Source of the DNA: Pseudomonadota bacterium
GTDB taxonomy: Bacteria; Pseudomonadota; Alphaproteobacteria; Acetobacterales; Acetobacteraceae
Reading direction: 5' to 3'
NCBI GenBank assembly: GCA_021805545.1
Contig: JAJZFB010000023.1
Coordinates: forward strand, 1-64,000
Length of the DNA: 64,000 bases
Part shown: positions 1,444 to 59,239 of the stretch, in pieces
How positions within the stretch are numbered: the stretch's first letter is position 1
Layout: every line of letters starts with the position of its first letter
The notes under the pieces: generated by a model
Databases searched by the model: none
What the model was told of the DNA's origin: nothing
The model's input: only the letters and a program-made list of their open reading frames with translations
Translations under genes and position numbers: made by a program

Positions 1444-2124
1444 ATGCAACGGCGCGGCCTGGTCCTGGGTGTTATGGGGGGTGCTGCCGGATGCGCGGCG
1501 GGAAGCGCGCTGCCGGCACGGGCGCAGGCGCGCGGTTTGCCCGTGCCGCCCTCGGGCGAGTTGCGTTTCCAGATATTGCGCAACGGCACGCCCGTGGGGG
1601 AGCACCACCTTTATTTCACCCAGAACGGCAACAGGCTGCGGGTGGACCTTGCCGCGGCCCTGGTGGTGCGCATCGCCGGAATACCCGTGTTTCATTACAA
1701 GGCAGATGCGTGCGAGCATTGGGAGGGCGGGCAATTTTGCGGTGTGGCCAGCAAGGTGGACCATAACGGCGCCCGGCTGCAGGTGCTGGCAAGCCCCATC
1801 GCGGATGGGTTTGCGATAGCCAGCACCAAGGCGGGAGATTACGATTATACGGGCAGCCCGCCCATGATGCCGCTAACCTATTGGAATAAGGCCATGCTGG
1901 AGTCGATGATCCTCAACATCGAAACCGGGCGCCATTATCCGGCCATCGTCAAATCGCCAGGGTGGAATTATCTTACCTCGGCGGAAGGTGAGCGTTTGGT
2001 GGCCCAGCGCTTCGACATATCGGGCAAACTCCACCTCTCGGTATGGTACGACCAGTACGGCCAATGGGCAGGGTTGCAGTTTTATGTGGATGGGGACGTG
2101 ACGTTCCGTAAATTTGTCACCTGA
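1444..2124 (+). CDS. DUF6134-like exported protein
   Basis: A 226-residue protein of unknown function resembling the DUF6134 family. The N-terminus MQRRGLVLGVMGGAAGCAAG has a twin-arginine pair followed by a hydrophobic, small-residue stretch and an Ala-rich ALPARAQA cleavage-like site, so export (possibly by Tat) is likely. The mature part is beta-rich, with GELRFQILRNGTPVGEH near the start, GIPVFHYKADACEHW in the middle, PLTYWNKAML, and a closing WYDQYGQWAGLQFYVDG block. A TTG lies immediately before the ATG; the ATG is preferred. It ends convergent with the small gene at 2320, and the gap carries a hairpin and a dispersed repeat. Confidence 0.7.
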   Translation: MQRRGLVLGVMGGAAGCAAGSALPARAQARGLPVPPSGELRFQILRNGTPVGEHHLYFTQNGNRLRVDLAAALVVRIAGIPVFHYKADACEHWEGGQFCGVASKVDHNGARLQVLASPIADGFAIASTKAGDYDYTGSPPMMPLTYWNKAMLESMILNIETGRHYPAIVKSPGWNYLTSAEGERLVAQRFDISGKLHLSVWYDQYGQWAGLQFYVDGDVTFRKFVT

Positions 2125-2213
2125 AGCGTGGTGTTTATAACCTATGGTTGTACAGACGCTATGCCCGGTACCTCATACTTGGCGCGTGGCCGCCCCGCCA
2201 GCCCCACGCGCGG

Positions 2214-2258
2214 TACCAACGGCTATAAAGGATGAGTCATCCTTTATAGCCGTTGGTA
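2214..2258. repeat. Perfect palindrome, copy 1 of a covarying hairpin pair
   Basis: Two 22-nt arms (2214-2235 and 2237-2258) are perfect reverse complements around a single central G at 2236. The inner core is AAAGGATGA/TCATCCTTT and the outer part is ACCAACGG/CCGTTGGT. A second copy lies at 43942-43996. The two share core and outer parts but differ at two adjacent positions in each arm, in a way that keeps the pairing. There is no run of T after the stem, so it is not a classical intrinsic terminator. Confidence 0.85.
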
Positions 2259-2270
2259 TTAGAGGCGCGG

Positions 2271-2328
2271 TGACTTGAGATGCGCGCGTTGTGCGCGCGA
2301 TTCGAACGTCTGAATCGCGCTAGCTGAA
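2271..2328. repeat. Dispersed intergenic repeat, copy A (shortened)
   Basis: Begins TGACTTGAGATGCGCGCG and continues through a GC-rich hairpin (GCGCGC either side of GTTGT), ATTCGAA, and CTGAATCGCGCT. It matches copies at 13566-13636 and 52445-52573 over its first ~50 nt, then diverges. The right end overlaps the last codons and stop of the minus-strand gene that ends at 2320. The 195-bp gap between the convergent genes is thus filled by the palindrome and this repeat. Confidence 0.75.
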
Positions 2329-2607
2329 TTTTTTTTCGGGATGGCGCAGATGCCAGAGACGTTCATGCGCGGCGACCAGGCTTTCTATGCTTTTACGCCG
2401 GTTGGCGTCGGGCGGAACCGTGCGGCGGGTCAGCATTGTCTCCAAAATTCTGAGTAATTCCTCAGCAATTTCGTAATCGCCCTGGTCGCAGGCGTGGTGG
2501 AAGGCGAGCAGGATTTTATCCGACAGGCGGCGGGTATAGCGGGGCGCCCCGCTTGGGGTGCGGGTGGCGGTTTCCATATTGTCTTCTGCGTCTGTAATGC
2601 CGGCCAT
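2320..2607 (-). CDS. Conserved small protein of unknown function
   Basis: A 95-residue soluble protein. After a variable start, RRLSDKILLAFHHACDQGDYEIAEELL reads as two amphipathic helices, followed by RRTVPPDANRRKSIESLVAAHERLWHLRHPEK. I recall similar small proteins in other Alphaproteobacteria but know no function. No signal peptide or membrane segment is present. An in-frame Met at 2577 (METATRTPS) is an equally possible start. The stop codon lies inside the dispersed repeat copy A. The upstream 200 bp is strongly AT-rich. Confidence 0.7.
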   Translation of the reverse strand: MAGITDAEDNMETATRTPSGAPRYTRRLSDKILLAFHHACDQGDYEIAEELLRILETMLTRRTVPPDANRRKSIESLVAAHERLWHLRHPEKKFS

Positions 2608-2799
2608 CTGCTGAAACCTGTGATCTTGTTAGTGTTTATATATAGAGAGATTTTTCTCTATTGCCGCATTTGAACAGGCTTGTAGAGGGGTTTGTCAAGA
2701 AATATTAGCATATTTTTAGTTAGTGAAACTAAACAGCGAGCTAACCATTGGGAAAGATTATTTAATCAATTTTTACACGAGTCAGTATGGACGCGACAA

Positions 2800-2824
2800 A
2801 ATGAATTTTATTTAATAATTCATT
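2800..2824 (-). terminator. Possible AT-rich hairpin terminator behind nrdB
   Basis: Arms AATGAATT (2800-2807) and AATTCATT (2817-2824) are reverse complements with a 9-nt loop, placed 4 nt after the nrdB stop codon. On the minus strand the stem is followed by TTTTG. The stem is A/T-only except for one pair, so it is weak. The surrounding 2640-2827 block is far richer in A/T than the genes around it, and no gene is visible there. Confidence 0.35.
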
Positions 2825-2827
2825 CTG

Positions 2828-3892
2828 TTACACCGCCGTGGCCCCGGTATCGGGGGAGAAATCGGCGAAGGCGTCTTCCCAACTGCCTGTGGTGGAGGCT
2901 TTGCTGTACTCGGTGGAGCGGTTCTCGAAGAAATTGGCGTGTTCCACCGCGTTCAGCATTTCGTCCAGCCAGGGCAGCGGGTTCTTTTCCACATGGAAAA
3001 GCGGGTTGAGGCTGAGCTGGCCGAGCCGGCGGTCGGCAATGTAGCGGATATAGGTTTTTACCTGCCCGGCGGTAAGCCCTTCCACCGGGCCCAGCTCGAA
3101 GGCAAGGTCGATGAAGGCATCCTCGTGGTCCACAATGGCGGCGCAGGTAAGGTAAATGTCGCGCTTGAGCTCCTCCGTCCAGATTTCCGGATTCTCTGAT
3201 ACAAAACTACGGAACAGGCGCGTGATCGAATCACAATGTAGTGATTCATCGCGGACCGACCAGGTGATGATCTGACCCATGCCCTTCATTTTATTGAAGC
3301 GCGGGAAGTTGAGCAGGATGGCGAAGGACGCGAAGAGCTGCAGCCCCTCGGTGAAGGCGCCGAAGGCGGCCAGGGTCTTGGCGATTTCGTGCTTGCTCTC
3401 AGTGGAGAAGCTGTGCATGAAATCGTATTTGTCCTTCATCTCCTTATACTTCAGGAACGCGGTATATTCGACCTCCGGCATGCCTACCGTATCGAGCAAA
3501 TGGGAGTAGGCGGCGATGTGGACCGTCTCGATATTCGAGAAGGCGGAGAGCATCATCAGCACTTCGGTGGGTTTGAACACCTGGGAGTAGCGCTTCATGT
3601 AGCAGTTATTCACCTCGACATCCGCCTGGGTGAAGAAGCGGAAAATCTGGGTGAGCAGATTGCGCTCGGCGAGGGTGAGGTTTTTGTGCCAGTCCTTCAC
3701 GTCGTCGGCCAGGGGCACTTCCTCCGGCAGCCAGTGGACGCGCTGCTGGGTGAGCCAGGCTTCATAGGCCCAGGGGTAGCGGAACGGCTTGTAAACCGGG
3801 TTTTCCGTGAGGAGATCGAATTTCTGCTCCGTTTCCGCCGCCGGTACGGTAATCTGTCCGTTCATCAAAAAAGCCTTCAATGTCTGTGCCAT
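2828..3892 (-). CDS. nrdB: Ribonucleoside-diphosphate reductase, beta (radical) subunit
   Basis: The 354-residue small subunit of class I ribonucleotide reductase, which houses the diiron-tyrosyl radical used by NrdA to make deoxyribonucleotides. Ferritin-like helices are evident: FTQADVEVNNCYMKRY carries the first carboxylate ligand region, SNIETVHIAAYSHLL holds an E-x2-H iron-ligand motif and the likely radical Tyr, and VRDESLHCDSI supplies the second E-x2-H. The C-terminal tail after WEDAF is acidic and flexible, as expected for docking to NrdA. A CAAGG ribosome site precedes the ATG. nrdA is on the same strand but 640 bp upstream, with a tRNA gene between. Confidence 0.95.
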   Translation of the reverse strand: MAQTLKAFLMNGQITVPAAETEQKFDLLTENPVYKPFRYPWAYEAWLTQQRVHWLPEEVPLADDVKDWHKNLTLAERNLLTQIFRFFTQADVEVNNCYMKRYSQVFKPTEVLMMLSAFSNIETVHIAAYSHLLDTVGMPEVEYTAFLKYKEMKDKYDFMHSFSTESKHEIAKTLAAFGAFTEGLQLFASFAILLNFPRFNKMKGMGQIITWSVRDESLHCDSITRLFRSFVSENPEIWTEELKRDIYLTCAAIVDHEDAFIDLAFELGPVEGLTAGQVKTYIRYIADRRLGQLSLNPLFHVEKNPLPWLDEMLNAVEHANFFENRSTEYSKASTTGSWEDAFADFSPDTGATAV

Positions 3893-4288
3893 TGCCTTGA
3901 TAATACAACATTTAAGGTCGAGCCCATGGTTAATCTCGGACGCTGAGTATTTTATCAGAGATAATCACGGCTAACTTAAATGTACATTGGCTGGGCACAT
4001 GCGATTCCGACAATGCCATGAATCGCTATTTGAATGCGTTCGCTATATTTAGTTGTGGATATTTTGTTCGGCACGATATGTTGATTTTGAGTCATGCTTT
4101 TCCAGTGTAGCTATTTTTTGGCTGCCAAACACTGTCTTTTCCAGATTAGTTTAAATAACATGGAAGACACGCATTTGAATTGCATTCAAGTTGATGCCTA
4201 GTAATAGCTTTGCTACATTTTAAGTGTGGTAAAGCGGGACTCGGAGAGAGTCCTTACTTCACTACGAAAACTGTGAGTTGGTAAAGAT
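3893..4288. other. Gene-free AT-rich stretch upstream of nrdB
   Basis: About 400 bp with no supportable gene and much lower GC than the neighbours. It must contain the nrdB promoter on the minus strand. Two AT-rich segments near 4043-4065 (minus strand ACTAAATATAG and ACAAAATATCC) loosely resemble NrdR-type operator halves. A CAGTGT/ACACTG inverted repeat lies at about 4104-4134. None of these is strong enough to call as a site. Confidence 0.5.
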
Positions 4289-4379
4289 TGGTGGGCCGGG
4301 AGGGACTCGAACCCTCATTCTCCGGATTACAAATCCAGTGCTGTGCGTCCTAGCAGACTTCCAGTTCAGCTACCGGCCC
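4289..4379 (-). tRNA. tRNA-Thr(TGT) with an enlarged D-loop
   Basis: A cloverleaf can be drawn on the minus strand: acceptor GGGCCGG/CCGGCCC, D-stem GCTG/CAGC, anticodon stem CTGGA/TCCGG around loop TTTGTAA (anticodon TGT, Thr), 5-nt variable loop AGAAT, T-arm GAGGG-TTCGAGT-CCCTC, discriminator A and an encoded CCA at 4289-4291. The D-loop is about 23 nt (4344-4366) instead of the usual 7-11. It still holds the GG expected for D-loop/T-loop contact, and the extra part can fold into a small GTCT/GGAC hairpin. It may be a functional unusual tRNA or a decayed one. Confidence 0.7.
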
Positions 4380-4384
4380 ACTAA

Positions 4385-4416
4385 GGGCGCCCAAGAGTTG
4401 CAGCTCTTGGGCGCCC
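4385..4416 (+). terminator. Strong 13-bp hairpin next to the tRNA
   Basis: Arms GGGCGCCCAAGAG and CTCTTGGGCGCCC are perfect reverse complements around a 6-nt loop. On the plus strand the stem is followed by AAAATTTTTT, which is the shape of an intrinsic terminator. There is no plus-strand gene upstream to terminate. On the minus strand the stem lies within about 10 nt of the 5' end of the tRNA and after nrdA, so it could end nrdA transcription or separate it from the tRNA. Confidence 0.6.
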
Positions 4417-4532
4417 AAAATTTTTTAAGAATGCTCAAAGAGAGAATTAAAACACATCTTGTTAGACTTTGTGCTCCTTAATGAGGGGTGGCGATACTCG
4501 CCATAACGAGTGCAGGGCAGCGCCCCTACCTA

Positions 4533-6416
4533 TTACTGACAGGCCAGGCATTCCTCGTAATTCGTGCCCGCCGCCGCCAGCGGTAAGGGGGTGCTGCCAT
4601 CATTGGCTGCCGGTGCGGATGAGAGATCCGCCATTTTTTCGCGCTTCTCCGAGACGTTATCGGCACGCTGGATGGAGAGCGAGCGGCAGTAATAGAGCGA
4701 TTTCACGCCCTTCTTCCAGGCCTGGAAGTGGATTTGGTGCAGGTCGCGCTTATGCACATTGGCCGGGAGGAACAGGTTGATGGACTGGCTCTGGCAGATA
4801 TAGGGCGTGCGGTCGGCGGCGTGCTCGATGATCCAGCGCTGGTCCAGCTCGAAGGCGGTTTTGAACACGTCTTTCTCGTGCTGGGTGAGGAAGCCGAGAT
4901 GCTGCACCGAGCCCTTGGAGGTGGTGATGGAGGACCATGTCTCTTCATCATCACGCCCGTATTGGGCCAGCAGCCTCTGCAGCGCGCGGTTGCGCACGGA
5001 GAAGCTGCCGGAGAGTGTTTTTTGCAGGAACACATTGGCCGCGATGGGCTCGATGCCCGGCGAGGTGTTGCCGGCGATGATGGAGATGGAGGCGGTGGGG
5101 GCGATGGCGATCTTGTGAGAAAAACGCTCCTCGATGCCGTAATCGGCCGCATCCGGGCAGGCGCCGCGTTCTTGGGCCAGTTTTTTGGAAGCCGCATCGG
5201 CCTGGGCGCGGATATGTTTGAACATTTTCACGTTCCACACTTTCGCCATCACGCTTTCCCACGGGATGTTCTGGTCCTGCAGGAAGGAATGGAAGCCCAT
5301 GACGCCCATGCCGACCGAACGCTCGCGGTACGCGGCGTATTTGGCTTTTTCCATGGAATCCGGCGCCTTGCGGATGAAATCTTCCAGCACGTTATCGAGG
5401 AAGCGCATCACATCCTCGATGAACAGCTCATCCTTGTGCCATTCCATCCAGGTTTCCAGGTTGAGCGAGGAGAGGCAGCACACGGCGGTACGCTGCTTGC
5501 CATACTGGTCCACGCCGGTGGGCAGGGTGATCTCGGCGCAGAGGTTGGAGGTTTTTACCTCAAGGCCGGCGAGCTTGTGCTGCTCGGGGCGGGCATTGTT
5601 CACATGGTCGGAGAAGATGAGGTACGGCTCGCCGGTTTCGATGCGCGCGGTGAGGATGCGGACCCAGAGCGCGCGGGCGGAGATGGAGCGCACATGCGCG
5701 CCATCTTTCGGCGATTTCAGTACCCATTGCTCATCGGCTTCCACGGCACGCATGAAGGCGTCGGAGATGAGGATGCCGTGATGCAGGTTGAGCGCCTTGC
5801 GGTTGGGGTCGCCGCCGGTGGGACGGCGGATTTCGACGAATTCCTCGATCTCGGGGTGCCAGACCGGCAGATACACCGCCGCCGAGCCGCGGCGCAGATC
5901 GCCCTGCGAGATGGCGAGGGTGAGGCTGTCCATCACGCGGATGAAGGGGATGATGCCGGAGGTTTTGCCGGCACCTTTCACCTTCTCGCCAATGGAGCGC
6001 AGATTGCCCCAGTAGGAGCCGATGCCGCCGCCCTTGGAGGCAAGCCACACATTCTCGTTCCACAGCCCCACAATGCCGTCCAGGGAGTCCGAGGCCTCGT
6101 TGAGGAAGCAGGAGATGGGCAGGCCGCGCTCGGTGCCGCCATTGGAGAGCACCGGGGTGGCGGGCATGAACCACATTTTCGAGATGTAATCATACAGACG
6201 CTGGGCGTGCGCCTGGTCGTCGCCATAATACGAGGCGACTCGGGCGAAGAGGTCCTGGTAGGTCTCGCCGGGCAGCAGGTAACGGTCGTCGAGCGTGGCG
6301 CGGCCGAAATCGGTCAGCAGCGTGTTGCGGGATTGATCTACGCGGACCTGATGGCGCTCCCGCATCTGGACCGGGGTGTCGAACAGGGCGGCTTCTGGTT
6401 TTGTCATCATGTTCAT
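4533..6416 (-). CDS. nrdA: Ribonucleoside-diphosphate reductase, alpha (catalytic) subunit
   Basis: The 627-residue large subunit of class I ribonucleotide reductase. It reduces ribonucleotides in the cytoplasm with NrdB. The catalytic barrel is recognisable from PATPVLSNGGTERGLPISCF (first active-site Cys), NLCAEI (active-site Cys/Glu), GMGVMGFHSFLQ, and the tyrosine pair VKSLYYCRS. The protein ends EECLACQ, the C-x2-C tail that relays electrons from thioredoxin or glutaredoxin. There is no N-terminal ATP-cone; the barrel begins within about 50 residues, so the usual overall-activity regulation may be missing. Four Met codons lie at the start (MNMM), and the first is used here. Confidence 0.95.
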   Translation of the reverse strand: MNMMTKPEAALFDTPVQMRERHQVRVDQSRNTLLTDFGRATLDDRYLLPGETYQDLFARVASYYGDDQAHAQRLYDYISKMWFMPATPVLSNGGTERGLPISCFLNEASDSLDGIVGLWNENVWLASKGGGIGSYWGNLRSIGEKVKGAGKTSGIIPFIRVMDSLTLAISQGDLRRGSAAVYLPVWHPEIEEFVEIRRPTGGDPNRKALNLHHGILISDAFMRAVEADEQWVLKSPKDGAHVRSISARALWVRILTARIETGEPYLIFSDHVNNARPEQHKLAGLEVKTSNLCAEITLPTGVDQYGKQRTAVCCLSSLNLETWMEWHKDELFIEDVMRFLDNVLEDFIRKAPDSMEKAKYAAYRERSVGMGVMGFHSFLQDQNIPWESVMAKVWNVKMFKHIRAQADAASKKLAQERGACPDAADYGIEERFSHKIAIAPTASISIIAGNTSPGIEPIAANVFLQKTLSGSFSVRNRALQRLLAQYGRDDEETWSSITTSKGSVQHLGFLTQHEKDVFKTAFELDQRWIIEHAADRTPYICQSQSINLFLPANVHKRDLHQIHFQAWKKGVKSLYYCRSLSIQRADNVSEKREKMADLSSAPAANDGSTPLPLAAAGTNYEECLACQ

Positions 6417-6688
6417 CGGGCGGCCTCTCGTTCATCCAAAGCGGAGAGCATAACAACATATAGTTTGCGCGGCGTGCAATCACTACCAGATGTTCAGGGG
6501 TAAGTTTTTTCAGCTTGACGAGTCTGGCCCCGAGTCATCCCCAGGCACAGGCACTTCGTTTACTGTTTGTTCTTTATGGGCGGGGTGTAACCGGGCGTCA
6601 AGTTTTAAGGGCCGCGTGCGAATCGGGGCGGGAGTGTGAAAGATGGATGGCCGGAAAAAGGCGGGGTGTGGTGCCAAAAAACATGTAT
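6417..6688. other. Non-coding stretch upstream of nrdA
   Basis: No gene is supportable in this 272-bp gap. On the minus strand, about 35-50 nt before the nrdA start, AACTATATGTTGTTA resembles an NrdR-type box and overlaps a -10-like TATATG. This is a weak, single-site match. The right part of the gap simply follows the stop codon of the acyltransferase gene. Confidence 0.4.
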
Positions 6689-7756
6689 TCAGAGTATCTT
6701 ACGGGCAAAACGCTGGAGCGGCGCGTCGAACAGGAAGGCGCTGGCGGCGGTGAGAGCCAGGGATGCTGCGAGCAGCAGGAAGAATGTGGGAATGGCGGGG
6801 TAATAGGCCCGCGCCGCCGGGTGAAAGAAAAACCAGGCGGAGAGCAGAAACCCCGGTACGGCATGCATGAGGTAGAGCGGGTAGGACATGGCGCCCAGCG
6901 CCGCGCCGCGCCGGGTAAGGCGCAGATGCCCGCCATGTTCCAGCGCTGCCAGGCTGTAGATGGTGGCGCCGAACGTGGCGGCGGTGAAGGGTAGATGGGC
7001 TGGGGTTGGGTACAGATTGCCCCAGCCACCCAGCCGCAGCGCCCAGGCCAGGGCCAGCAGGGTGAACCCCAGCAGCGGCCACAATATATAGCTGGGAGGT
7101 TTGTGCCGGGCGAAGACCCAGCTTGCCCCCAGCCCGGCGAAGAACATGACATTGTTCAGCGAGAGAAGATGGTCCGCCACGCCGCGCGGCAGGAAAGGCA
7201 GAAGGCTGGCGGCGGGGCCGAAGCCGAGCAGCACCTTACCCCAGGCGGCGGCCAGCAGCAGCGCCCAGCCGGGTAAGAGGACGCGCCTTATATAAGGGAG
7301 CAGGGCCAGGCCGAAGATGATGTAGAAAAGCAGCTCGTAACGCAGCGTCCAGGCCGGGGGGTTAAGCTCGGCAATGTTGCCGGTAAACGGCGCGAGGGTG
7401 AGGATGTTGACGAGGTATGCCCGGCTGCAGCCATTCCACAGCACCGCCAGCATGGGGATGAGCGAAAGCCAGTAAAGCGGGTAGATGCGCCAGAAGCGCC
7501 GCCAGACATAACGCGGCAGGCGCGCGGGCTTACCCGAATCACGCGCATGGGCGTTGTGGATGACGAAACCCGACAGGGTGAAGAAAAACATCACCGCGGC
7601 GGGGGCTGGGGCGGTGAGCAGGGCAGGGCCGAGCTTAAGGCCGGGAATGGTGGTGGAGATATGCTCCAGCGCCACCGTCAGGGCGGCGAGAAAGCGCGCG
7701 ATTTCCAGGCTGATGAATTTTCCGCCGTTACCCGTTTGCTGACGGCTGGATGCCAA
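6689..7756 (-). CDS. Membrane acyltransferase, acyltransferase-3 family
   Basis: A 355-residue polytopic inner-membrane protein of the acyltransferase-3 (OafA/NodX-like) family, which moves acyl groups onto cell-surface sugars. The start ISLEIARFLAALTVALEH carries the early family His, FFTLSGFVIHN is the typical second-helix signature, RRFWRIYPLYWLSL follows, and NPPAWTLRYELLFY matches the conserved W-x-L-x-x-E-xx-FY block. About ten hydrophobic segments are visible. The start is TTG, supported by a GGGAG site 9 nt upstream. The acceptor sugar cannot be told. The neighbours do not form a polysaccharide cluster. Confidence 0.85.
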   Translation of the reverse strand: MASSRQQTGNGGKFISLEIARFLAALTVALEHISTTIPGLKLGPALLTAPAPAAVMFFFTLSGFVIHNAHARDSGKPARLPRYVWRRFWRIYPLYWLSLIPMLAVLWNGCSRAYLVNILTLAPFTGNIAELNPPAWTLRYELLFYIIFGLALLPYIRRVLLPGWALLLAAAWGKVLLGFGPAASLLPFLPRGVADHLLSLNNVMFFAGLGASWVFARHKPPSYILWPLLGFTLLALAWALRLGGWGNLYPTPAHLPFTAATFGATIYSLAALEHGGHLRLTRRGAALGAMSYPLYLMHAVPGFLLSAWFFFHPAARAYYPAIPTFFLLLAASLALTAASAFLFDAPLQRFARKIL

Positions 7757-7809
7757 GCGCGTGTCTCCCTGTGCGGCCTGCGTTGCGTCATGCTTTCAAT
7801 CTGCCATAG

Positions 7810-8080
7810 ATGCAAGCCATGGATAACGAAGCCGCGCATTACCAGGGTTATGTGGATGAACGCAGCACACACCACGTAAAAGGCTGGCTGCGAGACCTGA
7901 ACGATGCGGCGCGGCGGCTGGACTATGAGGTGGTGCTGCCGCAAGGCGCGGGCGAGCGGCCATGGCGGAGAAGCAGGCGTTTCAGATAGAGGTGCGGCAT
8001 AGAGGTTCTCGCAGAGCCATATTCCGATGGCGCTCCAGCGGGCCGGGTTTCTCACCAGCGCGGCATGGCAATGGCTGGAA
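7810..8080 (+). pseudogene. Possible decayed remnant of a GWxxDL-type N-terminal module
   Basis: From ATG 7810, 59 codons read MQAMDNEAAHYQGYVDERST and on through HVKGWLRDLNDAARRLDYEVVLP before a stop at 7987-7989. Past the stop the same frame continues GIEVLAEPYSDGAPAG. The pattern GYVD...V.GW..DL....RRL..EVVLP...VLA..YSDG resembles modules I recall at the start of large acetobacterial and rhodospirillal surface or glycosyltransferase proteins. The remainder is absent and the kinase gene at 8090 begins (opposite strand), so this looks like a broken copy. It could also be a short real protein or chance. Confidence 0.35.
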
Positions 8081-8089
8081 GAGGCGTTG

Positions 8090-9478
8090 TTAGCGCCAGG
8101 CTTTGGCTCTTTGCACGGCGGCGGTAAAACGCGCGCGCCATTCCGCCGTGCTGCCCGCCTTGGGCTGCACCACGCGCTCGCCGCCCGGGCGTTTTATCTC
8201 GCCGCCTGCCGCCATGGCCGCGCAGCCAAAGGCGGTCAGCTCGTCGAATGCGGGAAGGATGAGGCCGCGCTCCAGAACATCCGCCAGGAATTGCACGAAA
8301 TAGGGGCTGCGGGTGAGACCGCCATCTATGGAGATGCGCGGCTTGAGGGGGAGTTTCGCACCCATTGCCGCCACAACTTCTGCCGTGCGCAGGGCGATGC
8401 CTTCCAGCAGGGCCTGGGCCATGTCGCGCTTGGTGGTGCCGGCATCCATGCCGATGAAGATGGCGGCGGCGCTGCGGTCCCAATGCGGGCAGGCGAGGCC
8501 GGAGAGGGCAGGGACGAAAGCAAGATTTTTCGAGATGGCGGGCGGGGCCTCGAAATTTTCAAGTTCCGCGAATGAGCTGAACAGGCCGATGCGCTGGCCC
8601 CATTCCACAGCCGCACCGGCATCGTACACGCCGCCATCCACCGCATAGGCCGCCGCACCGTTGCGCGACCAGGCCAATGTGGGCAGCAGGCCTTGTTCCG
8701 GGGCGTGGATGATCTGGCTGCCCGTGACGGCCAGGGCGAAAGCGCCGGTGCCGAAGGTGATTTTGGCATCGCCCGCCGCGCGGCAGCCATGGCCGTAGAG
8801 CGCGGCCTGCTGGTCCACCAGCGCGGCGCGGATGGGTGTGCCGTTGAATGTGCCGAAATCGCTGGCGGAATCGCGGATTTCCGGCAGGGCCTGCATGGGC
8901 ACGCCGAAAATGCGGCAGAGTCCGTCATCCCATTGGCGGGTGGCGAGGTTCATCAGCGATGTGCGCGAGGCGGTGGTGACATCGGTGGCGAAGACGCCGG
9001 TGAGGCGGTGGAGGAAGAAGGCATCCGTGGTGCCAAGGCGCAGGCGGCCCGCCGCCAGGGCCGCGCGGGCTTGCGGAATCTCGCGCAGAATCCAGGCGAA
9101 TTTCGAGGCGGAGAAATATGCGTCCAGCGGCAGCCCGGCGCGGGCCATTATTTCAGGTGCGGCATCTTGCAGCGTTTCCAGCCAGGCGGTGGTGCGGTTA
9201 TCTTGCCAGACGATGACGGGTGAGAGCGGCGCGCCGGTTACCGCATCCCAGGCCAGGCAGCTTTCGCCCTGGTTGGCGAGGCCAATGGCATCCACCGGCC
9301 CGGCGGCGGCGAGGCAGGCGCGGATGTTTTGCAGCAATTCTTCGGCATCGTGCTCCACCCAGCCAGGTTGCGGGTGATGCTGCGCGTGGCGCATGGCATG
9401 GGCGATGCGCGCGCCGGATTTGTCCAGCAGCAATACCCGCGTGCTGGTGGTGCCTTGGTCGATGGCCGCGATTCTCAC
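8090..9478 (-). CDS. FGGY-family kinase, glycerol-kinase-like
   Basis: A 462-residue sugar/polyol kinase. The N-terminal phosphate-binding block IDQGTTSTRVLLLDKSG is the glycerol-kinase type, QHHPQPGWVEHDAEEL follows, and the second actin-like domain has TFGTGAFALAVTG and ISIDGGLTRSPYFVQF. It is shorter than typical GlpK (~500 residues). The GTG start overlaps the stop of the upstream FAD protein by 4 nt, so the two are translationally coupled. With two GlpA/GlpB-like oxidoreductases in the same operon, phosphorylation of glycerol to glycerol 3-phosphate is the natural reading, but another polyol such as erythritol is possible. Confidence 0.8.
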   Translation of the reverse strand: MRIAAIDQGTTSTRVLLLDKSGARIAHAMRHAQHHPQPGWVEHDAEELLQNIRACLAAAGPVDAIGLANQGESCLAWDAVTGAPLSPVIVWQDNRTTAWLETLQDAAPEIMARAGLPLDAYFSASKFAWILREIPQARAALAAGRLRLGTTDAFFLHRLTGVFATDVTTASRTSLMNLATRQWDDGLCRIFGVPMQALPEIRDSASDFGTFNGTPIRAALVDQQAALYGHGCRAAGDAKITFGTGAFALAVTGSQIIHAPEQGLLPTLAWSRNGAAAYAVDGGVYDAGAAVEWGQRIGLFSSFAELENFEAPPAISKNLAFVPALSGLACPHWDRSAAAIFIGMDAGTTKRDMAQALLEGIALRTAEVVAAMGAKLPLKPRISIDGGLTRSPYFVQFLADVLERGLILPAFDELTAFGCAAMAAGGEIKRPGGERVVQPKAGSTAEWRARFTAAVQRAKAWR

Positions 9479-10674
9479 CGTGCAACCTCCACGGTGATTT
9501 GCGAAACACCTTGTGGCAACCTGATCTGTTCCAGATCGAGCAGCACGCGGCGTTCAGGCAGGGCAGAGAGCCAGCTACGGTAGAGGATGGTTTTGCCCGC
9601 GCGCACGCGCAACTGGCCGCGCGCCGGGGCGGCTACGCGTAATTGCAGCAGCCCGCGCATCTGGGTTACCCGCGCCAGGGTCTGCGGCACGGCATATTTC
9701 AGCCCCTCGCCACAGAGAATCTCAACCGCGCCCTCCATGCTGGGCAGGCCGCCGCAAAGGTCGTCGGCGATGTAATCGGCGATGGCCGTGCCTTCGCGGT
9801 AGCTCCACCCGGCGGTCTCGATCCCGCGCAGCACGTTGCCGGCGGCGAAATAGGCATTGTCGGAACAGCGGCCATACTGGTCCACCACCGGGCCGAGGCT
9901 GTGCGCGTCCACGGCCAGATGCCCCATGCGGGCGAGGCTGGATTCCGGTGTGAACTGGCCGGTGAGCAGCACGCCGTCGCACGTAATTTCGCGCCCATCG
10001 CGCAGGCGCACGCGCTCCACGCGCTCCGCGCCGCAAATTTCCTCGATTTGCGCGCCGTAATGCGTGGGGGTGCGGAGCAGGCGCGGAAGCCAGGCCAAAG
10101 GCCGCCTGGCGGTGGGGCGGTGTCCGGCTTCCAGCATCGCCACGGGGCGTATGCCGTGGCGGCGGCAGGTGAGCAGGGCGGAGAGCGAAACCAGCTCGGT
10201 ACCAGCCACCACGGGGCGGCGGAACGGGGTGGTGCCGTACAAGTATATATGTGCTTGCAGCGCGCCGGTATTCAGCACGCCGAGCGGCCTGTCGCCGCCG
10301 ATGAACCGGGCGGAACGCGGCGATTCGCGCGCGCCGGTGGCCAGCAGCACGCGCAGGGCGCGGAACTCCCGCGGCCCATCTGGCGTGGCTATGTCCAGCG
10401 TCCCGCCAGGGTGCAACCGTACCACGGTGTGGCGGAGCAGAATTTCCACGCCTGCTGCCTCGGCCGCGGCGGCAAGGCGCCTGGCATAGGCGGGGCCGCT
10501 GAGGATGCGGCCAAATTCGTGCATGCCGAAAGGCGGGTGACCGCAATGGCGCGGCACGCCGCCCAGAACCGGCTCGCGTTCCAGAATGGCCACGCGCCCC
10601 AGGCCGCGCGCTTTTAGCCGCAGCGCCGCCGCCACGCCCGCCGGGCCACCGCCGATAATGGCCACGTCAATCAT
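9475..10674 (-). CDS. FAD/NAD(P)-dependent oxidoreductase, partner of the GlpA-like protein
   Basis: A 399-residue flavoprotein. VAIIGGGPAGVAAALRLKARG is the Rossmann FAD-binding motif, ATGARESPRSARFIGGDRP marks the second nucleotide-binding section, and NAYFAAGNVLRGIETAGW is the conserved C-terminal FAD contact. Proteins of this kind pair with a GlpA-like flavoprotein carrying a BFD-type iron-sulfur domain, as in heteromeric glycerol-3-phosphate, opine or cyanide-forming dehydrogenases. It overlaps the upstream gene by 8 nt and the downstream kinase by 4 nt. It has no signal peptide. The exact substrate is inferred only from the operon. Confidence 0.78.
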   Translation of the reverse strand: MIDVAIIGGGPAGVAAALRLKARGLGRVAILEREPVLGGVPRHCGHPPFGMHEFGRILSGPAYARRLAAAAEAAGVEILLRHTVVRLHPGGTLDIATPDGPREFRALRVLLATGARESPRSARFIGGDRPLGVLNTGALQAHIYLYGTTPFRRPVVAGTELVSLSALLTCRRHGIRPVAMLEAGHRPTARRPLAWLPRLLRTPTHYGAQIEEICGAERVERVRLRDGREITCDGVLLTGQFTPESSLARMGHLAVDAHSLGPVVDQYGRCSDNAYFAAGNVLRGIETAGWSYREGTAIADYIADDLCGGLPSMEGAVEILCGEGLKYAVPQTLARVTQMRGLLQLRVAAPARGQLRVRAGKTILYRSWLSALPERRVLLDLEQIRLPQGVSQITVEVAR

Positions 10675-12028
10675 GTGGCGACTCGGCCAAAGGCGGCGTG
10701 ATTTTGCCCGTGGTGAGCGCGGCCAGCGCGGCGTTGCAGTAGAAGCCCTGGCAGCGCCCCATGCCGGCGCGGGTGCGGCGTTTCAGCCCGCCCCAATCCT
10801 GCGCGGGCAGCGGCCCGGCCAGGGCGGCTTCTATCTCGCGGCGCGTTACCAGCTCGCAGTGGCAGATAATCTCGCCATAGCCGGGTTGCTGCCAATCGCG
10901 CTGGCAATGCTCGGCCAGGCGCGGGGCTTGCGGCCATAGGGGGGCTGCCACCTCCTGGTGCGCGCCGCCGTATAATGCCCAGGCGTGCTGCGCCAGGCCC
11001 AAAGCCGCCGTTAGGCCAGTGGAGCGTATGCCGCCCAGGGTGATATAGTTGCGTTCCGGCTCATGCCGCACGCGATAGGCTTTGTCTTCCGTTGCCGGGC
11101 GGATGCCCGCGTAAATGGCGGTTACGGGCATGGTGCGCAGGGCAGGGAGCATTGCCTCCGCCTTGGCCCGCAGAATATGCAGCGTCTCTTCATCGGTCGC
11201 GGCGCGGCCGCGGCTTTCCTGCTCCTCGGCAGTGGGGCCAACCAGCAGATTGCCGAAAATGGTGGGGGTGAGCACGATGCCCTTGGTGTGCGCCTCGGGC
11301 ACTGGCAGCAGAATGGTGCGCAGGAGTTTGGCCGCCGCCTTGTCGAACACCACGAACTGGCCCTTGCGCGGCTTGATGGTGAAATGCCGCGTGCCGGTCA
11401 GGCGTTCATCCACCACGTCACCATACAGCCCGGCGCAGTTTATCACGGTGCGGGCTTGTAGCGCGCCGGTGCTTGTTTCCAGGTGCCAGGTGCCGTGGAA
11501 ATGCCCGGCAAGAACTTCCGTGTTGCGCCGTACCTCGGCGCCGTTTTCCAGCGCTTGTAGCAAATAGGCCAGTGGCGCGCTCCACGGGTCGATGAGGTAT
11601 TCGCCCGGCACGAGCACGCCGCCCAACAGGTTGGGGGCCAGATGCGGCTCGCGGGCCAGGATTTCTTCCGGCGTGATAAGGCGCGCATCGGCCACGCCAT
11701 TTTCGTGCGCTGCCGCCACGATGCCGGGGAGTTTTTCGGCCTGCGCCTTGGCCCAGGCAGCGACGATGGCGCCGCTTTCCAGCAGCGGCAGGCCGAGGCG
11801 CGTGCGGATTTGCAGGTATTCCTGGTAGCCTGCCTGCATGCAGCGCAGCTCCAGGCTGCCAGGCGGGGCGTCGAAGCCCGTATGCAATATGGCGCTGTTG
11901 CCCTTGCTGGCGCCGGAGAGGATGTCCGCGCCTTTTTCCAGCAGCACGGTGCGCGCACCCTGCAGCGTGAAGCGCCGCGCCACCGCGCACCCCACAACGC
12001 CGCCGCCCGCCACTGCTACATCGAACAT
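10667..12028 (-). CDS. GlpA-like FAD dehydrogenase with a BFD-type [2Fe-2S] domain
   Basis: A 453-residue flavoprotein. FDVAVAGGGVVGCAVARR is the FAD-binding motif, SKGNSAILHTGFDAPPGSL matches the glycerol-3-phosphate dehydrogenase/L-2-hydroxyglutarate family, and GGIRSTGLTAALGLA is its C-terminal FAD contact. The last ~70 residues carry the four-Cys BFD-type cluster motif (ICHCE, then MGRCQGFYC), as in anaerobic GlpA. It is first in a three-gene operon with the FAD partner and the kinase, suggesting glycerol 3-phosphate oxidation to dihydroxyacetone phosphate. The divergent Lrp-type gene begins 114 bp away and may control it. Confidence 0.82.
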   Translation of the reverse strand: MFDVAVAGGGVVGCAVARRFTLQGARTVLLEKGADILSGASKGNSAILHTGFDAPPGSLELRCMQAGYQEYLQIRTRLGLPLLESGAIVAAWAKAQAEKLPGIVAAAHENGVADARLITPEEILAREPHLAPNLLGGVLVPGEYLIDPWSAPLAYLLQALENGAEVRRNTEVLAGHFHGTWHLETSTGALQARTVINCAGLYGDVVDERLTGTRHFTIKPRKGQFVVFDKAAAKLLRTILLPVPEAHTKGIVLTPTIFGNLLVGPTAEEQESRGRAATDEETLHILRAKAEAMLPALRTMPVTAIYAGIRPATEDKAYRVRHEPERNYITLGGIRSTGLTAALGLAQHAWALYGGAHQEVAAPLWPQAPRLAEHCQRDWQQPGYGEIICHCELVTRREIEAALAGPLPAQDWGGLKRRTRAGMGRCQGFYCNAALAALTTGKITPPLAESPHD

Positions 12029-12092
12029 GGCGCGAAGGCTCTACCGGCGCTGCTGCCCTGTCAACCGCGCTGCCCCATGGCCCAAACTTGCG

Positions 12093-12111
12093 CGCGCAAT
12101 TATATTGCGCG
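12093..12111. promoter_or_regulatory. Candidate operator in the glpA-like / Lrp divergent gap
   Basis: Arms CGCGCAAT and ATTGCGCG are perfect reverse complements around TAT, centred on 12102. It lies about 65 nt before the GlpA-like start and 32 nt before the Lrp-type start. AT-rich-centre dyads of about 15 nt are usual targets for Lrp/AsnC proteins, and such proteins often control a divergent neighbour and themselves. The role is inferred. Confidence 0.45.
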
Positions 12112-12142
12112 AAACCATAAGGCTTGGGGCAGATAACAGACC

Positions 12143-12625
12143 GTGACAGACGCGCTTATTCTCGACGATCTCGACCGCAAAATTCTGGCTGAATTGCAGG
12201 CGGATGGGCGTATAACCAATGTGGAGCTGGCCCGGCGGGCCGGAATTTCCGCCCCGCCCTGCCTGCGCCGCGTGCGCCGGCTGGAGGAGGCGGGGTATAT
12301 ACAAGGCTACCATGCCGCCACCGACGCGCAGAAGCTGGGCTGGCAGATTGCGTTTTTTGTGATTGTGGGGCTGGAGAGCCAAAAGCAGAGTGTGCTGGAG
12401 GCGTTTGAGGCGCTGGTGGCCACATGGCCAGAGGTGAGGGAGTGCCATATGATACGGGGGGGCGGAGATTTTTTGCTGAAGCTGGTGGCGCGCGATGCGG
12501 CACATGAAAACCAGCTTACAGCGCGCCTGACCAACGCGCCCAGCGTGGCCAAGGTGCAGACGCTGCAAACCATACGCACCAGCCGCGCGCTGGCGGGCGT
12601 GCCGATGGAGCGTAACGGTGGGTGA
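12143..12625 (+). CDS. Lrp/AsnC-family transcriptional regulator
   Basis: A 160-residue DNA-binding protein. LDDLDRKILAELQADGRITNVELARRAG is the Lrp helix-turn-helix start, with the recognition part SAPPCLRRVRRLEEAGYIQGY. The C-terminal RAM ligand-binding fold follows (VRECHMIRGGGDFLLKLVARD). The start is GTG at 12143. It is divergent from the GlpA-like operon and overlaps the next plus-strand gene by 8 nt. A dyad at 12093-12111 in the shared promoter gap is a plausible binding site. The effector, usually an amino acid, is unknown. Confidence 0.9.
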   Translation: MTDALILDDLDRKILAELQADGRITNVELARRAGISAPPCLRRVRRLEEAGYIQGYHAATDAQKLGWQIAFFVIVGLESQKQSVLEAFEALVATWPEVRECHMIRGGGDFLLKLVARDAAHENQLTARLTNAPSVAKVQTLQTIRTSRALAGVPMERNGG

Positions 12626-13535
12626 GGCGCTCATCCTGCTGGCGGCTCTTGCCACCGGCCTGCTGTGCCGGTTTTGGCCTGCCCATCTGCCGTATATTTT
12701 CCCCTTTATTTTTAATCCTTTCATTTTTATTGGCTGCTGGCTGGCCGCGCTATGGTACTGGCGCGGCATGCGGCGCGTGGCGCCGGAGGCCCGGCCCAGC
12801 CGGGTGCGGCAGGGGTTTTTCATTGCCGGGGTCGCGGGCATCTACTTCGTGCTGCAAACGCATTTTGAATATATGTCGCAGCATATGTTCTTCCTTAACC
12901 GTACCCAGGCAGTTACACTTGGCATGGCCGCGCCGTTTGCCATTGCCATTGGCTGGATGGGAGATGTTCTGGCCCTTGGCATGCCGCTTTACGCGCTGCG
13001 CTGGGCCAAGGCCATTTGGGCGCGGGGGAGCTGGCTTGCCCACCCTGTTCCGGCCAGCATCATCTTCCTCACCACCACCGATTTTTGGCTGATCCCGAGT
13101 GTGCATTTCGCCGCCATGCTGGACCCCACGCTATATGCGGTGATGAATATTTCCTGCCTCTCGGGCGGGCTGCTGTTCTGGCTGATGGTGCTGGACCCAC
13201 GGCCGAAGCCGCCGGCGCGTTACTCGTACCTTGTGCGCGGGGCGGCGGGGTTTCTGGTCATGTTCCCGCAAATCGCAATCAGCTCCACCATCGCGCTCAG
13301 CAACCAGGATATATACTCGTTTTACTCCATATGTGGCCGCATCTTTCCCAGCATTTCAGGACATTACGACCAGGTTTTGGGCGGGCTGATACAATGGATT
13401 CCCCCTGGAATGATGAACACGGCGGCGCTGCTGATCTTGCTGAATGCGCTGCGCCTGGTGGAAGAAGAAGCGGACAGGAATTTTGTACCGCCGCCAGGTG
13501 CAAAAATTTATGAGGCGAAATGGACCGGGCGGTAA
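12618..13535 (+). CDS. CtaG (caa3-type)-like polytopic membrane protein
   Basis: A 305-residue inner-membrane protein with about seven to nine hydrophobic segments. HFEYMSQHMFFLNRTQAVTLGMAAPFAIAIG resembles the H-x3-H-M-x6 pattern of the CtaG_caa3 cytochrome c oxidase assembly family. A second cluster HPVPASIIFLTTTDFWLIP fits the family HP-x-x-x-x-x-x-x-x-W region. The GTG start overlaps the Lrp gene stop, so it is probably cotranscribed. No oxidase genes are nearby. Assignment to the family is likely; the role in copper insertion is not demonstrated by the sequence. Confidence 0.6.
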   Translation: MGEALILLAALATGLLCRFWPAHLPYIFPFIFNPFIFIGCWLAALWYWRGMRRVAPEARPSRVRQGFFIAGVAGIYFVLQTHFEYMSQHMFFLNRTQAVTLGMAAPFAIAIGWMGDVLALGMPLYALRWAKAIWARGSWLAHPVPASIIFLTTTDFWLIPSVHFAAMLDPTLYAVMNISCLSGGLLFWLMVLDPRPKPPARYSYLVRGAAGFLVMFPQIAISSTIALSNQDIYSFYSICGRIFPSISGHYDQVLGGLIQWIPPGMMNTAALLILLNALRLVEEEADRNFVPPPGAKIYEAKWTGR

Positions 13536-13565
13536 AGCTATGAGCCTGACCGGCCAGGGCCGGAT

Positions 13566-13636
13566 GGCTTGAGATGTGCTCGCCTTGCGCGCGATTCGAA
13601 AACCTGAATCGCGCTCTGCTTCATTGATTGAGAGCC
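13566..13636. repeat. Dispersed intergenic repeat, copy B
   Basis: Reads GGCTTGAGATGTGCTCGCC, then a GCGCGCGATTCGAA block, CTGAATCGCGCTCTGC and TTCATTGATTGAGAGCCG. It matches copies A (2271) and C (52445). It lies between convergent genes ending at 13535 (plus) and 13621 (minus). Its last ~16 nt are the final codons (ALNQ) and stop of the minus-strand methylase gene. Confidence 0.8.
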
Positions 13637-14346
13637 GCGCCGCCGCGCAGTACGGATTGGGCCGCTCCGGTAAGCCCCGCCTCATCATGCAAAACCAGGC
13701 CGGGCAATATCTTCGCCCCGGCGCGGCTGGCCTTGCGGGCGGTGAGGATGACTATTTTCGCGGCCTGCCCGGCGCGCGGCCATAGGGGCAGCAGTGTTAT
13801 GGCGCCACATTTTTGCGCCCGCAGCGCTGCCGTGGCGCTGGCGAAGCTGGCGGCGGGAAGAATGAGGCTGATGCTGCCTTGTGGCCGCACCACGCGCCCC
13901 AGCTCGCCCAGCCAGCCCTCCAGCAGGCCGGGCCCGGCGCGGTGGGCGAGGTCGCGCGCGGTGTTGGGCGAGGCTGTGTCCGCCGCGTTAAACCAGGGCG
14001 GATTGGCCAGCACATGATGAAAGGATTGCGCGGCGAAGGGAAGGGCGGTGGCATCTGCTTGAATAGCGGAAAGATTAGCCAGTTTATTGATTTTGAAATT
14101 TTCATCGGCCAGACGGGCCAGCGCCGCCACCCGTTCCACCCCTATGCCGCGCAAGCCTGGCACACGCGCCGCCAGGCATAGTAATGCCGCCCCGGCGCCT
14201 GTGCCGGCTTCCAGCACGGCATCTCCCGGCCGGGCCGGCACACAGGCGGCGAGCAGCACGGGTTCGAATCCGCTCCGGTGCCCCGAGGAGAGTTGCCTGT
14301 AAACCAGGCTGTTGCCGAGCAACCCGCCATCCGTCACCGCCGCCAT
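13621..14346 (-). CDS. TrmN6-like SAM-dependent methyltransferase
   Basis: A 241-residue Rossmann methyltransferase resembling tRNA1(Val) adenine-N6 methyltransferases. YRQLSSGHRSGFEPVLLAA fits the family's Q-x-x-x-G-x-R-x-x-x-D/E-x-x-LLA start, VLEAGTGAGAALLCLA is the SAM-binding motif I, and HVLANPPWF is the NPPW/Y catalytic motif of N6-adenine methylases. The start at 14346 is chosen because the motif-bearing part begins here, and the longer frame upstream overlaps the divergent polyprenyl synthase promoter. The last codons and stop fall inside repeat copy B, so the tail GGAALNQ may not be ancestral. Confidence 0.78.
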   Translation of the reverse strand: MAAVTDGGLLGNSLVYRQLSSGHRSGFEPVLLAACVPARPGDAVLEAGTGAGAALLCLAARVPGLRGIGVERVAALARLADENFKINKLANLSAIQADATALPFAAQSFHHVLANPPWFNAADTASPNTARDLAHRAGPGLLEGWLGELGRVVRPQGSISLILPAASFASATAALRAQKCGAITLLPLWPRAGQAAKIVILTARKASRAGAKILPGLVLHDEAGLTGAAQSVLRGGAALNQ

Positions 14347-14412
14347 GTGCTTTTCACCCTTTCCCAAACGCGCTGGATATGGTGGTAACGCAAACAGGTG
14401 TAACAAGTTAGG

Positions 14413-15752: not shown

Positions 15753-15827
15753 TTTTGATCCAGGTTGCCGTTGTTCGCGCCGGACCATAGGGTGCGGCGC
15801 GTGACAGTCAACTAGGATAGACGACGA

Positions 15828-16676: not shown

Positions 16677-16727
16677 GCCGGACTTGGGAAAGGGAGCCAC
16701 GCAGGGTACAACCCGGCGCGGCACCGG

Positions 16728-16817
16728 GGAAGGGTGGCCGAGTGGTTTAAGGCAGCGGTCTTGAAAACCGCCGTGCGTTAACGCGTACCGTGGGTTCGAA
16801 TCCCACCTCTTCCGCCA
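16728..16817 (+). tRNA. tRNA-Ser(TGA)
   Basis: A complete class II tRNA with acceptor GGAAGGG/CTCTTCC, anticodon stem GCGGT/ACCGC around CTTGAAA (anticodon TGA, reading UCA), a long variable arm (GTGCGTTAACGCGTAC), T-loop GTTCGAATC and an encoded CCA. The following 150 bp to the MBL gene stop contains no gene. Confidence 0.97.
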
Positions 16818-43946: not shown

Positions 43947-43996
43947 GACCAACGGGCATAAAGGATGAGTCATCCTTTATGCCCGTTGGTCTTAAA
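43942..43996. repeat. Perfect palindrome, copy 2 of the covarying hairpin pair
   Basis: Two 27-nt arms (43942-43968, 43970-43996) are perfect reverse complements around a central G at 43969. The core AAAGGATGA/TCATCCTTT and outer ACCAACGG/CCGTTGGT are the same as in copy 1 at 2214-2258. Between them copy 1 has CT paired with AG, while this copy has GC paired with GC. The palindrome includes the stop codon of the SdhAF4-like gene. Both genes around it are on the plus strand. Confidence 0.88.
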
Positions 43997-48031: not shown

Positions 48032-48062
48032 GGTCGGCTTGCGGTATAGGCGCGGTTTGGCC

Positions 48063-51021: not shown

Positions 51022-51049
51022 TTTCCCCCCCGGACCTTACATTCGTGTC

Positions 51050-51838: not shown

Positions 51839-52437
51839 AGACGTTGATGGAGGGATATGACCGGTTTCGTGCAGGCTATTGGCGCGCGCACGAGGCGTTA
51901 TATTCCAGCCTGGCGCGCGAAGGCCAGGCTCCACCCGCCATGGTGATTGCGTGTGCGGATTCACGCGTTGCCCCGGAGATGATTTTTGACTGCGCGCCGG
52001 GCGAGATTTTCGTGGTCCGCAACGTTTCCGCCCTGGTGCCGCCTTACGAGCCGGACGACAACAAGCATGGCACCTCGGCGGCCCTGGAATTTGCCGTGAC
52101 CGCGCTGAATGTGCGTACCATCGTGGTGATGGGCCATACACGCTGCGGCGGCATACGCGCGCTGATGCAGCCAAATGGACGGCATGGCGACTTTATCGAA
52201 TCCTGGATGGAGATTGCGAAAACCGCACGCCAGCGCGTGTGCGATTCGCCTGATGCCGGAGATGATTTCGACAGTAAGTGCCAAGCCTGCGAGCGGGAAG
52301 CCATCCGCGTATCCTTGGCGAACCTGATGACTTTTCCGTGGATTGCCGGGCGTGTGAAGGCCGGGACGCTCACGTTGGCAGGGCTGCATTTTGATGTGGA
52401 AAACGGAACATTGCAGGAGGTTGGCGCTTTGCCGTAG
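51835..52437 (+). CDS. Beta-class carbonic anhydrase
   Basis: A 200-residue zinc enzyme interconverting CO2 and bicarbonate. The zinc ligands are in VIACADSRVAPEMIF (Cys and the catalytic Asp-Arg dyad, near residue 39) and MGHTRCGGIRAL (His and Cys near 99). FVVRNVSALVPPY is the usual core. The ATG at 51835 gives ATGA overlap with mazG. The repeat copy C begins a few bases after its stop. Confidence 0.92.
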   Translation: MKTLMEGYDRFRAGYWRAHEALYSSLAREGQAPPAMVIACADSRVAPEMIFDCAPGEIFVVRNVSALVPPYEPDDNKHGTSAALEFAVTALNVRTIVVMGHTRCGGIRALMQPNGRHGDFIESWMEIAKTARQRVCDSPDAGDDFDSKCQACEREAIRVSLANLMTFPWIAGRVKAGTLTLAGLHFDVENGTLQEVGALP

Positions 52438-52444
52438 AGCACGA

Positions 52445-52573
52445 TGACTTGAGATGCGCTCGCTTTGCGAGCGCTTCGAAAGTCTGCATCGCGCTCTACC
52501 TCATTGATTGAGAGCCGGATTGAGATTTCAGACCGGATCACAACGTGATCCGCTCTAAAATCATCCGGCTCTC
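52445..52573. repeat. Dispersed intergenic repeat, copy C (longest)
   Basis: Starts TGACTTGAGATGCGCTCGC, with a perfect GCGCTCGC/GCGAGCGC hairpin, then CTTCGAAAGTCTGCATCGCG, and CTCTACCTCATTGATTGAGA. The part GAGAGCCGGAT (52510-52520) is mirrored by ATCCGGCTCTC (52563-52573). Between these is a second dyad, CGGATCAC/GTGATCCG (52534-52552). Copies A, B and D share parts of it. It begins 8 nt after the carbonic anhydrase stop. Confidence 0.82.
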
Positions 52574-52589
52574 AGGCGTTACCCTCATT

Positions 52590-52769: not shown

Positions 52770-52846
52770 TGGTCGGAGCGGCGGGATTCGAACCCACGAC
52801 CCCCAGTCCCCCAGACTGATGCGCTACCAGGCTGCGCTACGCTCCG
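52770..52846 (-). tRNA. tRNA-Pro(GGG)
   Basis: A 77-nt cloverleaf on the minus strand with acceptor CGGAGCG/CGCTCCG, D-arm AGCGCAGCCTGGTAGCGC, anticodon loop CTGGGGG (anticodon GGG), T-loop GTTCGAATC and encoded CCA. CAGCCTGG in the D-loop is typical of tRNA-Pro. The 97 bp to the MerR-like gene stop contains nothing visible. Confidence 0.95.
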
Positions 52847-59207: not shown

Positions 59208-59239
59208 ATCATCCGGCTCTGAATCAATGAAGTAGAGCG
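59208..59239. repeat. Dispersed intergenic repeat, copy D (partial, inverted)
   Basis: ATCATCCGGCTCTGAATCAA followed by TGAAGTAGAGCG is the reverse complement of the 3' part of copies B and C, with one or two changes. It begins 5 nt after the PhoX-like stop and lies in the gap before the convergent thioesterase gene. Confidence 0.7.

Follow-up and report, generated by a model that had tools for sequence, protein, structure and literature searches.

The window, by which we mean the whole 64-kb stretch of DNA that was analysed, contains four copies of a dispersed repeat, A to D (Table 1). Each of them lies, as the initial annotation had stated, between the end of a plus gene on its left and a minus gene or the minus-strand tRNA-Pro on its right, the right-hand neighbour of copy A being an ORF without Pfam match. 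The position of copy C after a plus gene and before tRNA-Pro was likewise confirmed: The plus gene encodes a carbonic anhydrase, and its TAG stop codon (52435-52437) consists of the TA at the 5′ end of copy C and the subsequent G, such that the stop codon forms the left edge of the repeat. The TA at the opposite, 3′ end of copy C now reads CA. Copy B stops at GAGAGCCG, and the stop codon of a minus methyltransferase-domain gene (13621-13623) is located within its spacer. Copy A ends with ...CTGAATCGCGCTAGC and lacks the last block, and copy D comprises 26 nt that are 92% complementary to copy B (I13). A pattern of unit 1 (up to three mismatches) matches A, B, and C, a pattern of the spacer matches B and C, and neither has a single match in 100 shuffles of the window. 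The sequence blocks originally described as common to A-D are thus present and not due to chance; the claim was overstated, however, insofar as A, B, and D are truncated and only C is complete, and the second large palindrome of copy C, which constitutes its unit 2, had been missed.

Table 1. Coordinates of the repeat copies and of neighbouring features in the window. Scores are those of the covariance model.
Feature	Position	Strand	Description
Palindrome of the second family	2214..2258	.	immediately left of copy A; its 22-bp arms are perfect (D9, I25)
Copy A	2262..2322	+	unit 1 only; 54.0 bits, E 1.6e-14
Uncertain ORF	2320-2607	-	terminates at the right edge of copy A
Copy B	13562..13637	+	unit 1 and spacer, right unit lost; 69.0 bits, E 5.5e-19
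ORF	24791-26884	-	contains low-complexity direct repeats
Low-complexity direct repeats	25215-25843		GCGGCTT-rich
Palindrome of the second family	43948..43990	.	flanked by two weak plus ORFs from the gene finder
Copy C	52435..52574	+	only full-length copy in the window (~140 bp); 158.7 bits, E 9.6e-46, copy C being itself one row of the model
Copy C, unit 1	52435-52498		
Copy C, spacer	~52499-52508		
Copy C, unit 2	~52509-52574		large palindrome
Short repeated ATAGGCCGCCACA units	52670-52740		between copy C and tRNA-Pro
tRNA-Pro (ggg)	52770..52846	-	right of copy C
Copy D	59208..59236	-	weak spacer remnant, ~29 bp; 18.8 bits, E 5e-4

Other palindromes accompany the repeat. The second family in Table 1 (TACCAACGG...CCGTTGGTA) was matched 29 times across the window and 77 fetched stretches of the same genome; TACCAACGG adjoins a fragment of an IS630 transposase of this genome (L058), and an IS630 transposase gene broken in two (L059) has one such palindrome between its parts. 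A third family (TAGTGT...ACACTA; 12 matches) and a fourth (TAGAGCATTT/AAACGCTCTA; 23 end matches), noted at L155, L148, L169, and other loci, abut the repeat at shared CTAG or TTAG sites in several loci, resulting in mosaics.

Family Size and Twin-Hairpin Architecture

The genome-wide search with a covariance model that the initial annotation had proposed as a check identified a real family instead of chance similarities: 91 non-overlapping copies with at least 50 bits are found in the 2.79-Mb genome. Of the first 30 loci, 21 entered the underlying alignment (A1); seven of the others were cut by contig ends, one was a near-duplicate of another locus, and one was missed by the script. From 151 model matches, 106 were picked by eye, a choice that omitted the weakest rows as well as the majority of overlaps on opposite strands and yielded 103 non-overlapping ones. 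A blastn search with copy C produced 89 alignments in the same genome, many of which correspond to both strands of one palindromic copy. Because several of the 96 contigs of the assembly end inside copies, the true copy number may be higher than counted. Within the genus, 31 of 38 genomes (own included) are matched by the model with an E-value of 1e-5 or lower and seven are not. A pattern scan of one genome per species for 84,980 species, a collection that may lack the own genome and very close ones, returned 21 stretches, all of them from MAGs titled Acidocella, Rhodospirillales bacterium, or Proteobacteria bacterium, and a comparison with Rfam at gathering scores recovered tRNAs only. An artefact of the fragmented assembly, for which the contigs ending in copies might speak, as well as chance similarity are refuted by the shuffle and genome counts, and we assign them a practically negligible probability.

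A full young copy measures about 140 bp and is organised as TA-GAGCGCGATGAC, hairpin 1, GTCTGAATCGCGCTCTA, a spacer of about 10 bp, TTAGAGACGGATTCAGA, hairpin 2, and ATCATCCGGCTC-TA. Its terminal inverted repeats TAGAGCGCGATGAC and TAGAGCCGGATGAT are imperfect, and among the matches listed many such pairs measure about 139 bp end to end. The element is short, non-coding, and multi-copy, as is characteristic of a MITE. The reference young copy is predicted to form two independent hairpins on either strand (-82 kcal/mol, z -11.7, none of 200 shuffles as low), and most species representatives give the same twin hairpins as single minimum-energy folds, some of them pairing the four feet differently.

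The two stems covary across species. In an alignment of 15 of 22 species representatives (A2; several of the seven left out have eroded or truncated ends), 28 of 58 pairs have changed on both sides, in 89 cells, and 90.0% of the cells pair, the structure having been written from one of the 15 sequences. None of 500 shuffles, which ignore relatedness, reaches any of these three figures, and sliding the structure yields 3 to 11 doubly changed pairs. The four feet are near-invariant: Changes on both sides affect 2 and 1 pairs in helices 1 and 3, compared to 13 and 12 in the stems. Each foot helix contains one unpaired position, which recurs at the same place in 11 and 13 of the 15 sequences, respectively, and a 3-nt TGA/TCA bulge is present in the first inner foot of 14 and in the second inner foot of all 15. 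The second inner foot moreover carries GATTC in every one of the 15 representatives, and the first carries GAATC in 12. At least two GANTC sites are found in 18 of 21 copies of the own genome, and copy C of the window has none. The density amounts to about 2.5 per full copy in these 21 copies versus 132 per 64-kb window; with 143.7 sites expected in the window, the latter count provides no clear signal of a GANTC depletion that would indicate methylation.

The covariation of the stems reflects either selection on a hairpin that is recognised in transposition or self-templated repair of the palindrome. Since the feet, their unpaired positions, and the bulge with its GANTC are kept while the stems vary freely but stay paired, the hairpins themselves might be the recognised units: Transposition would then read a folded strand, and methylation of the inner feet by CcrM might gate it and thereby couple it to the cell cycle. 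We regard this as speculative and rather unlikely. The species-specific stems on conserved feet, which extend across most of the genus, constitute a natural series in which selection and self-templated repair can be compared as causes of paired palindromes.

Placement at Gene Ends and Insertion at TA

Genes were called by a codon-usage finder that had been trained on the window, and the context of 75 of the 91 copies was thereby resolved: 42 lie in convergent gaps, 31 in tandem gaps, one in a divergent gap, and one inside a gene, the other 16 being located at contig edges. The placement statistics exclude these 16 and the copy inside a gene. The convergent excess (42 of 74 copies vs 12 of 64 window gaps, Fisher p 5e-6) shows that the bias initially noticed from four copies holds genome-wide, and it is accompanied by a divergent deficit relative to the window gaps (Fisher p 6e-4), which comprise 12 convergent (four of them holding A-D), 40 tandem, and 12 divergent ones. 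Merging neighbouring copies (41 convergent, 31 tandem, 1 divergent) leaves this result unchanged. In the window and the fetched stretches together, gaps free of the element number 27 convergent, 187 tandem, and 62 divergent, a baseline that excludes copy-bearing gaps and therefore exaggerates the contrast. Within tandem gaps, 24 of 31 copies are closer to the 3′ end of the upstream gene, the median distance being 28 bp from the upstream gene end and 121 bp from the downstream start.

Such a distribution might be expected of a bidirectional transcription terminator, as had been suggested in the initial annotation, or of an RNA 3′-end stabiliser that is kept between convergent genes. The strong twin hairpins on both strands, the covariation of their stems, and a T-run that follows copy A at some distance from the stem are in line with this role. 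However, none of A-D is among the 35 terminator-like sites in positions 1500-20500 and 45000-64000, and the inter-hairpin spacer, which lies 3′ of hairpin 1 or 2 depending on the strand, has no T-run, the outer sides being dependent on the flanks. The window copies thus do not have the intrinsic-terminator signature of a stem with a U-rich tract. Moreover, 31 of 75 resolved copies occupy tandem gaps, a close relative lacks copies at the corresponding positions (see below), seven of the 38 genomes have no model match at E 1e-5, and an enrichment at 3′ ends is expected of any tolerated insertion. A terminator role is consequently not supported, and we consider it improbable.

The comparison with relatives points to a mobile element. 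The joined flanks of 25 loci (9 + 16) were sought in congeners, mainly in G017, with flanks that are 87-96% identical at informative sites; seven candidates per genome were scored for the first nine loci, and 40 in each of two genomes for the other 16. G017 has an element-free site at at least six of the 25 loci, only two of which are clean on both sides: At C34:8930, the own sequence CCT-TA-GCGCG...GGC-TA-GCCC faces the empty site CCTTAGCCC, and at C34:34825, AGC-TA-AGCG...CTC-TA-AGG faces AGCTAACG, each empty site containing a single TA. The TA was duplicated on insertion, which is clean in these two cases; the other four sites are eroded or partial. Of these, C19:58807 is eroded on one side and C91:3347 is eroded, at C65:43983 the right foot of the own copy is lost, and at C37:16462 both the repeat and a neighbouring palindrome are missing from G017. 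The target lies mostly within YTAR, as judged by inspection of the element ends; IS630 itself prefers CTAG.

The region of copy B spans 108 bp in the own genome and 23 bp in G017, where the copy appears to be either absent or deleted. At C56:37845 the situation is ambiguous, and at C34:168013 G017 keeps a remnant. For C36 and C53, junction-spanning matches were obtained only in the distant G025 (77% and 70%), with no clean site; C80 and C86 gave one-sided matches, C49:129259 and C34:122726 matches of the left flank only, and the remaining loci, copy C included, no usable site among the matches listed. In G018, the flanks of C27:32710 and C73 are 100% identical to those of the own genome, which is due to either recent transfer or mixed binning. 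The G018 stretches that are 100% identical beside two copies are located on G018:C53 (L272, L274) and G018:C82 (L269), and other flank matches in this genome reach about 74-93%.

The flanking TA is frequently part of a stop codon. It is identical to the TA of a gene's stop in 22 of the 55 copies for which an end could be recognised, namely at 14 of 38 recognisable 5′ ends and 8 of 27 recognisable 3′ ends, a count that would also include genes cut short by insertion. Both backgrounds indicate an enrichment: The window contains 28 stop TAs versus 308 non-coding TAs (one-sided binomial p 1.5e-10), and the element-free surroundings contain 157 versus 1134 (Fisher p 4e-7). At C34:8930, C34:34825, C19:58807 (each TAA), and C65:43983 (TAG), the element-free relative has a stop at the same place, and therefore the element landed on an existing stop there; a stop at the corresponding position is also found at C49:129259 and C34:122726, where the left flank alone aligns. 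The termini usually read TA-G, whereby the stop stays TAG, and some read TA-A, whereby it stays TAA. The tolerance at gene 3′ ends is probably explained in part by the TA-G end, which regenerates a stop. This provides a sequence-level reason for the build-up of bacterial MITEs at gene ends, as the terminus of the element rebuilds the stop on which it lands. The alternative interpretation offered at the outset, a mobile element tolerated only at gene ends, is largely borne out by the element-free TA sites, the avoidance of divergent gaps, and the 3′-end preference in tandem gaps; the word "only" does not hold, given the 31 of 75 copies in tandem gaps and the one inside a gene.

The repeat is therefore probably a TA-targeting, non-autonomous MITE of the IS630/Tc1 type with a twin-hairpin body, which is present in about ninety copies in this Acidocella-type genome and tolerated at gene 3′ ends. 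An IS630-type enzyme would mobilise it in trans; its insertion at TA duplicates the TA, which is the behaviour of IS630/Tc1-mariner transposases. Where the element enters a TAA or TAG stop codon at its TA, a stop remains; insertions in genes or promoters would presumably be purged, and those at stops and in convergent gaps would survive. Consequently, the repeat would be found between gene ends partly because it lands on stop codons and rebuilds them.

Candidate Mobilising Enzymes

Mobilisation by an IS630-type enzyme is suggested by the TA duplication and by the TAGAGC ends that are common to two types of IS630 elements of the genus and the repeat. According to an excerpt of PMC2170065, an IS630-family transposase inserts at TA with TA duplication in vitro. 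The IS630 elements with TAGAGC ends at TA measure 1.05-1.07 kb and occur at five loci in two types (L062, L087; L066, L067, L069). Beyond TAGAGC, their ends share only scattered bases with the repeat; another short repeat of the own genome (TAGAGCATTTTCCGATC...) closely matches one IS630 end. Of the 31 genomes with the repeat, 22 have a match to IS630 (PF13358), as do 5 of the 7 without it (own and 37 congeners, many of the assemblies being incomplete), so that IS630 presence does not track the repeat. Foot-pattern searches in 14 genomes (6 + 8) retrieved no autonomous element with full feet among the matches listed, and scanning the loci of the best IS630 matches for TIRs gave no parent.

Other leads likewise gave no parent. 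DDE_Tnp_1 (PF01609) transposases have three matches in the own genome; two of these loci contain a lone TAGAG-type motif, and none has an inverted pair. The one close inverted pair of feet that was inspected, at G034:C49 (same site at G012:C185), consists of two repeat copies that flank ordinary genes.

A simple TIR model does not need the inner feet, which are nevertheless about as conserved as the outer ones, and a duplicated TA is by itself compatible with both a DDE transposase and a single-strand mechanism for which TA is target as well as terminus. A rival reading takes the repeat for a REPIN-like hairpin dimer that is moved as single-stranded DNA by an IS200/IS605-type (RAYT, HUH) transposase. 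In this respect, its two imperfect inverted hairpins with conserved feet, the foot mismatch at the same place in most species, and the 3-nt bulge are suggestive, and GTAG REPs often provide TAG stops according to an excerpt of PMC3733652. Yet Y1_Tnp, the domain of such enzymes, has no match in the own genome and only weak ones in 5 of 38 genomes; beside these five Y1_Tnp genes there are only loose TAGAG or TCAGAC matches, none at one of the genes, and no feet. Furthermore, the units comprise about 63 nt instead of 20-40, and the foot reads TAGAG instead of GTAG. We consider movement by a RAYT very unlikely and retain the TA-targeting MITE of the IS630/Tc1 type as the preferred reading.

Relation to Known Repeat Families

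One of the closest known counterparts is RUP of Streptococcus pneumoniae, a non-coding element of 107 bp with 108 intergenic copies, a TA target, and TIRs like those of IS630-Spn1, as described in an excerpt of PMC2229807; it is over-represented in convergent gaps according to an excerpt of PMC3049150. The element described here is likewise short, non-coding, and mostly intergenic, with a TA target and a convergent-gap excess. It differs from RUP in two respects: The genome with RUP also contains an IS of highly similar TIRs, whereas here the TAGAGC terminus alone matches, and the twin-hairpin element is made up of two complete hairpins whose four feet are conserved.

In architecture, it resembles CIR, an alphaproteobacterial intergenic repeat of about 110 bp in which a linker joins two long inverted-repeat arms and which carries GANTC (excerpt of PMC2229807). 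Both have two arms joined by a linker, apart from a few species representatives that fold otherwise, and both contain GANTC. In CIR, which was compared by its description in that excerpt, this site is located at or partly in the terminal loop, whereas it is found here at the bulge of the inner foot. CIR is also named in the accessible part of a 2024 review (PMC10969869), which describes MITEs as mostly intergenic.

GTAG and CGTC REP dimers are inverted hairpin pairs that reside mainly in tandem and convergent gaps, as stated in the excerpt of PMC3733652; the present element differs from them in unit length, foot sequence, and TA duplication, and no RAYT was found in its own genome. For pneumococcal BOX and SPRITE, a passage of PMC3049150 reports convergent-gap enrichment; of 58 CDSs that overlap BOX, 36 take their stop codon from the repeat. 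The SPRITE stem is followed by a U-rich tract, in contrast to the twin-hairpin copies of the window, in which none was seen.

No description of the Acidocella family was found in titles and abstracts of the open-licence literature. A convergent-gap bias, stop-donating repeats, and twin-arm repeats with GANTC are already known from other systems, whereas the Acidocella-type family itself, its covarying twin hairpins, and its empty sites are new.
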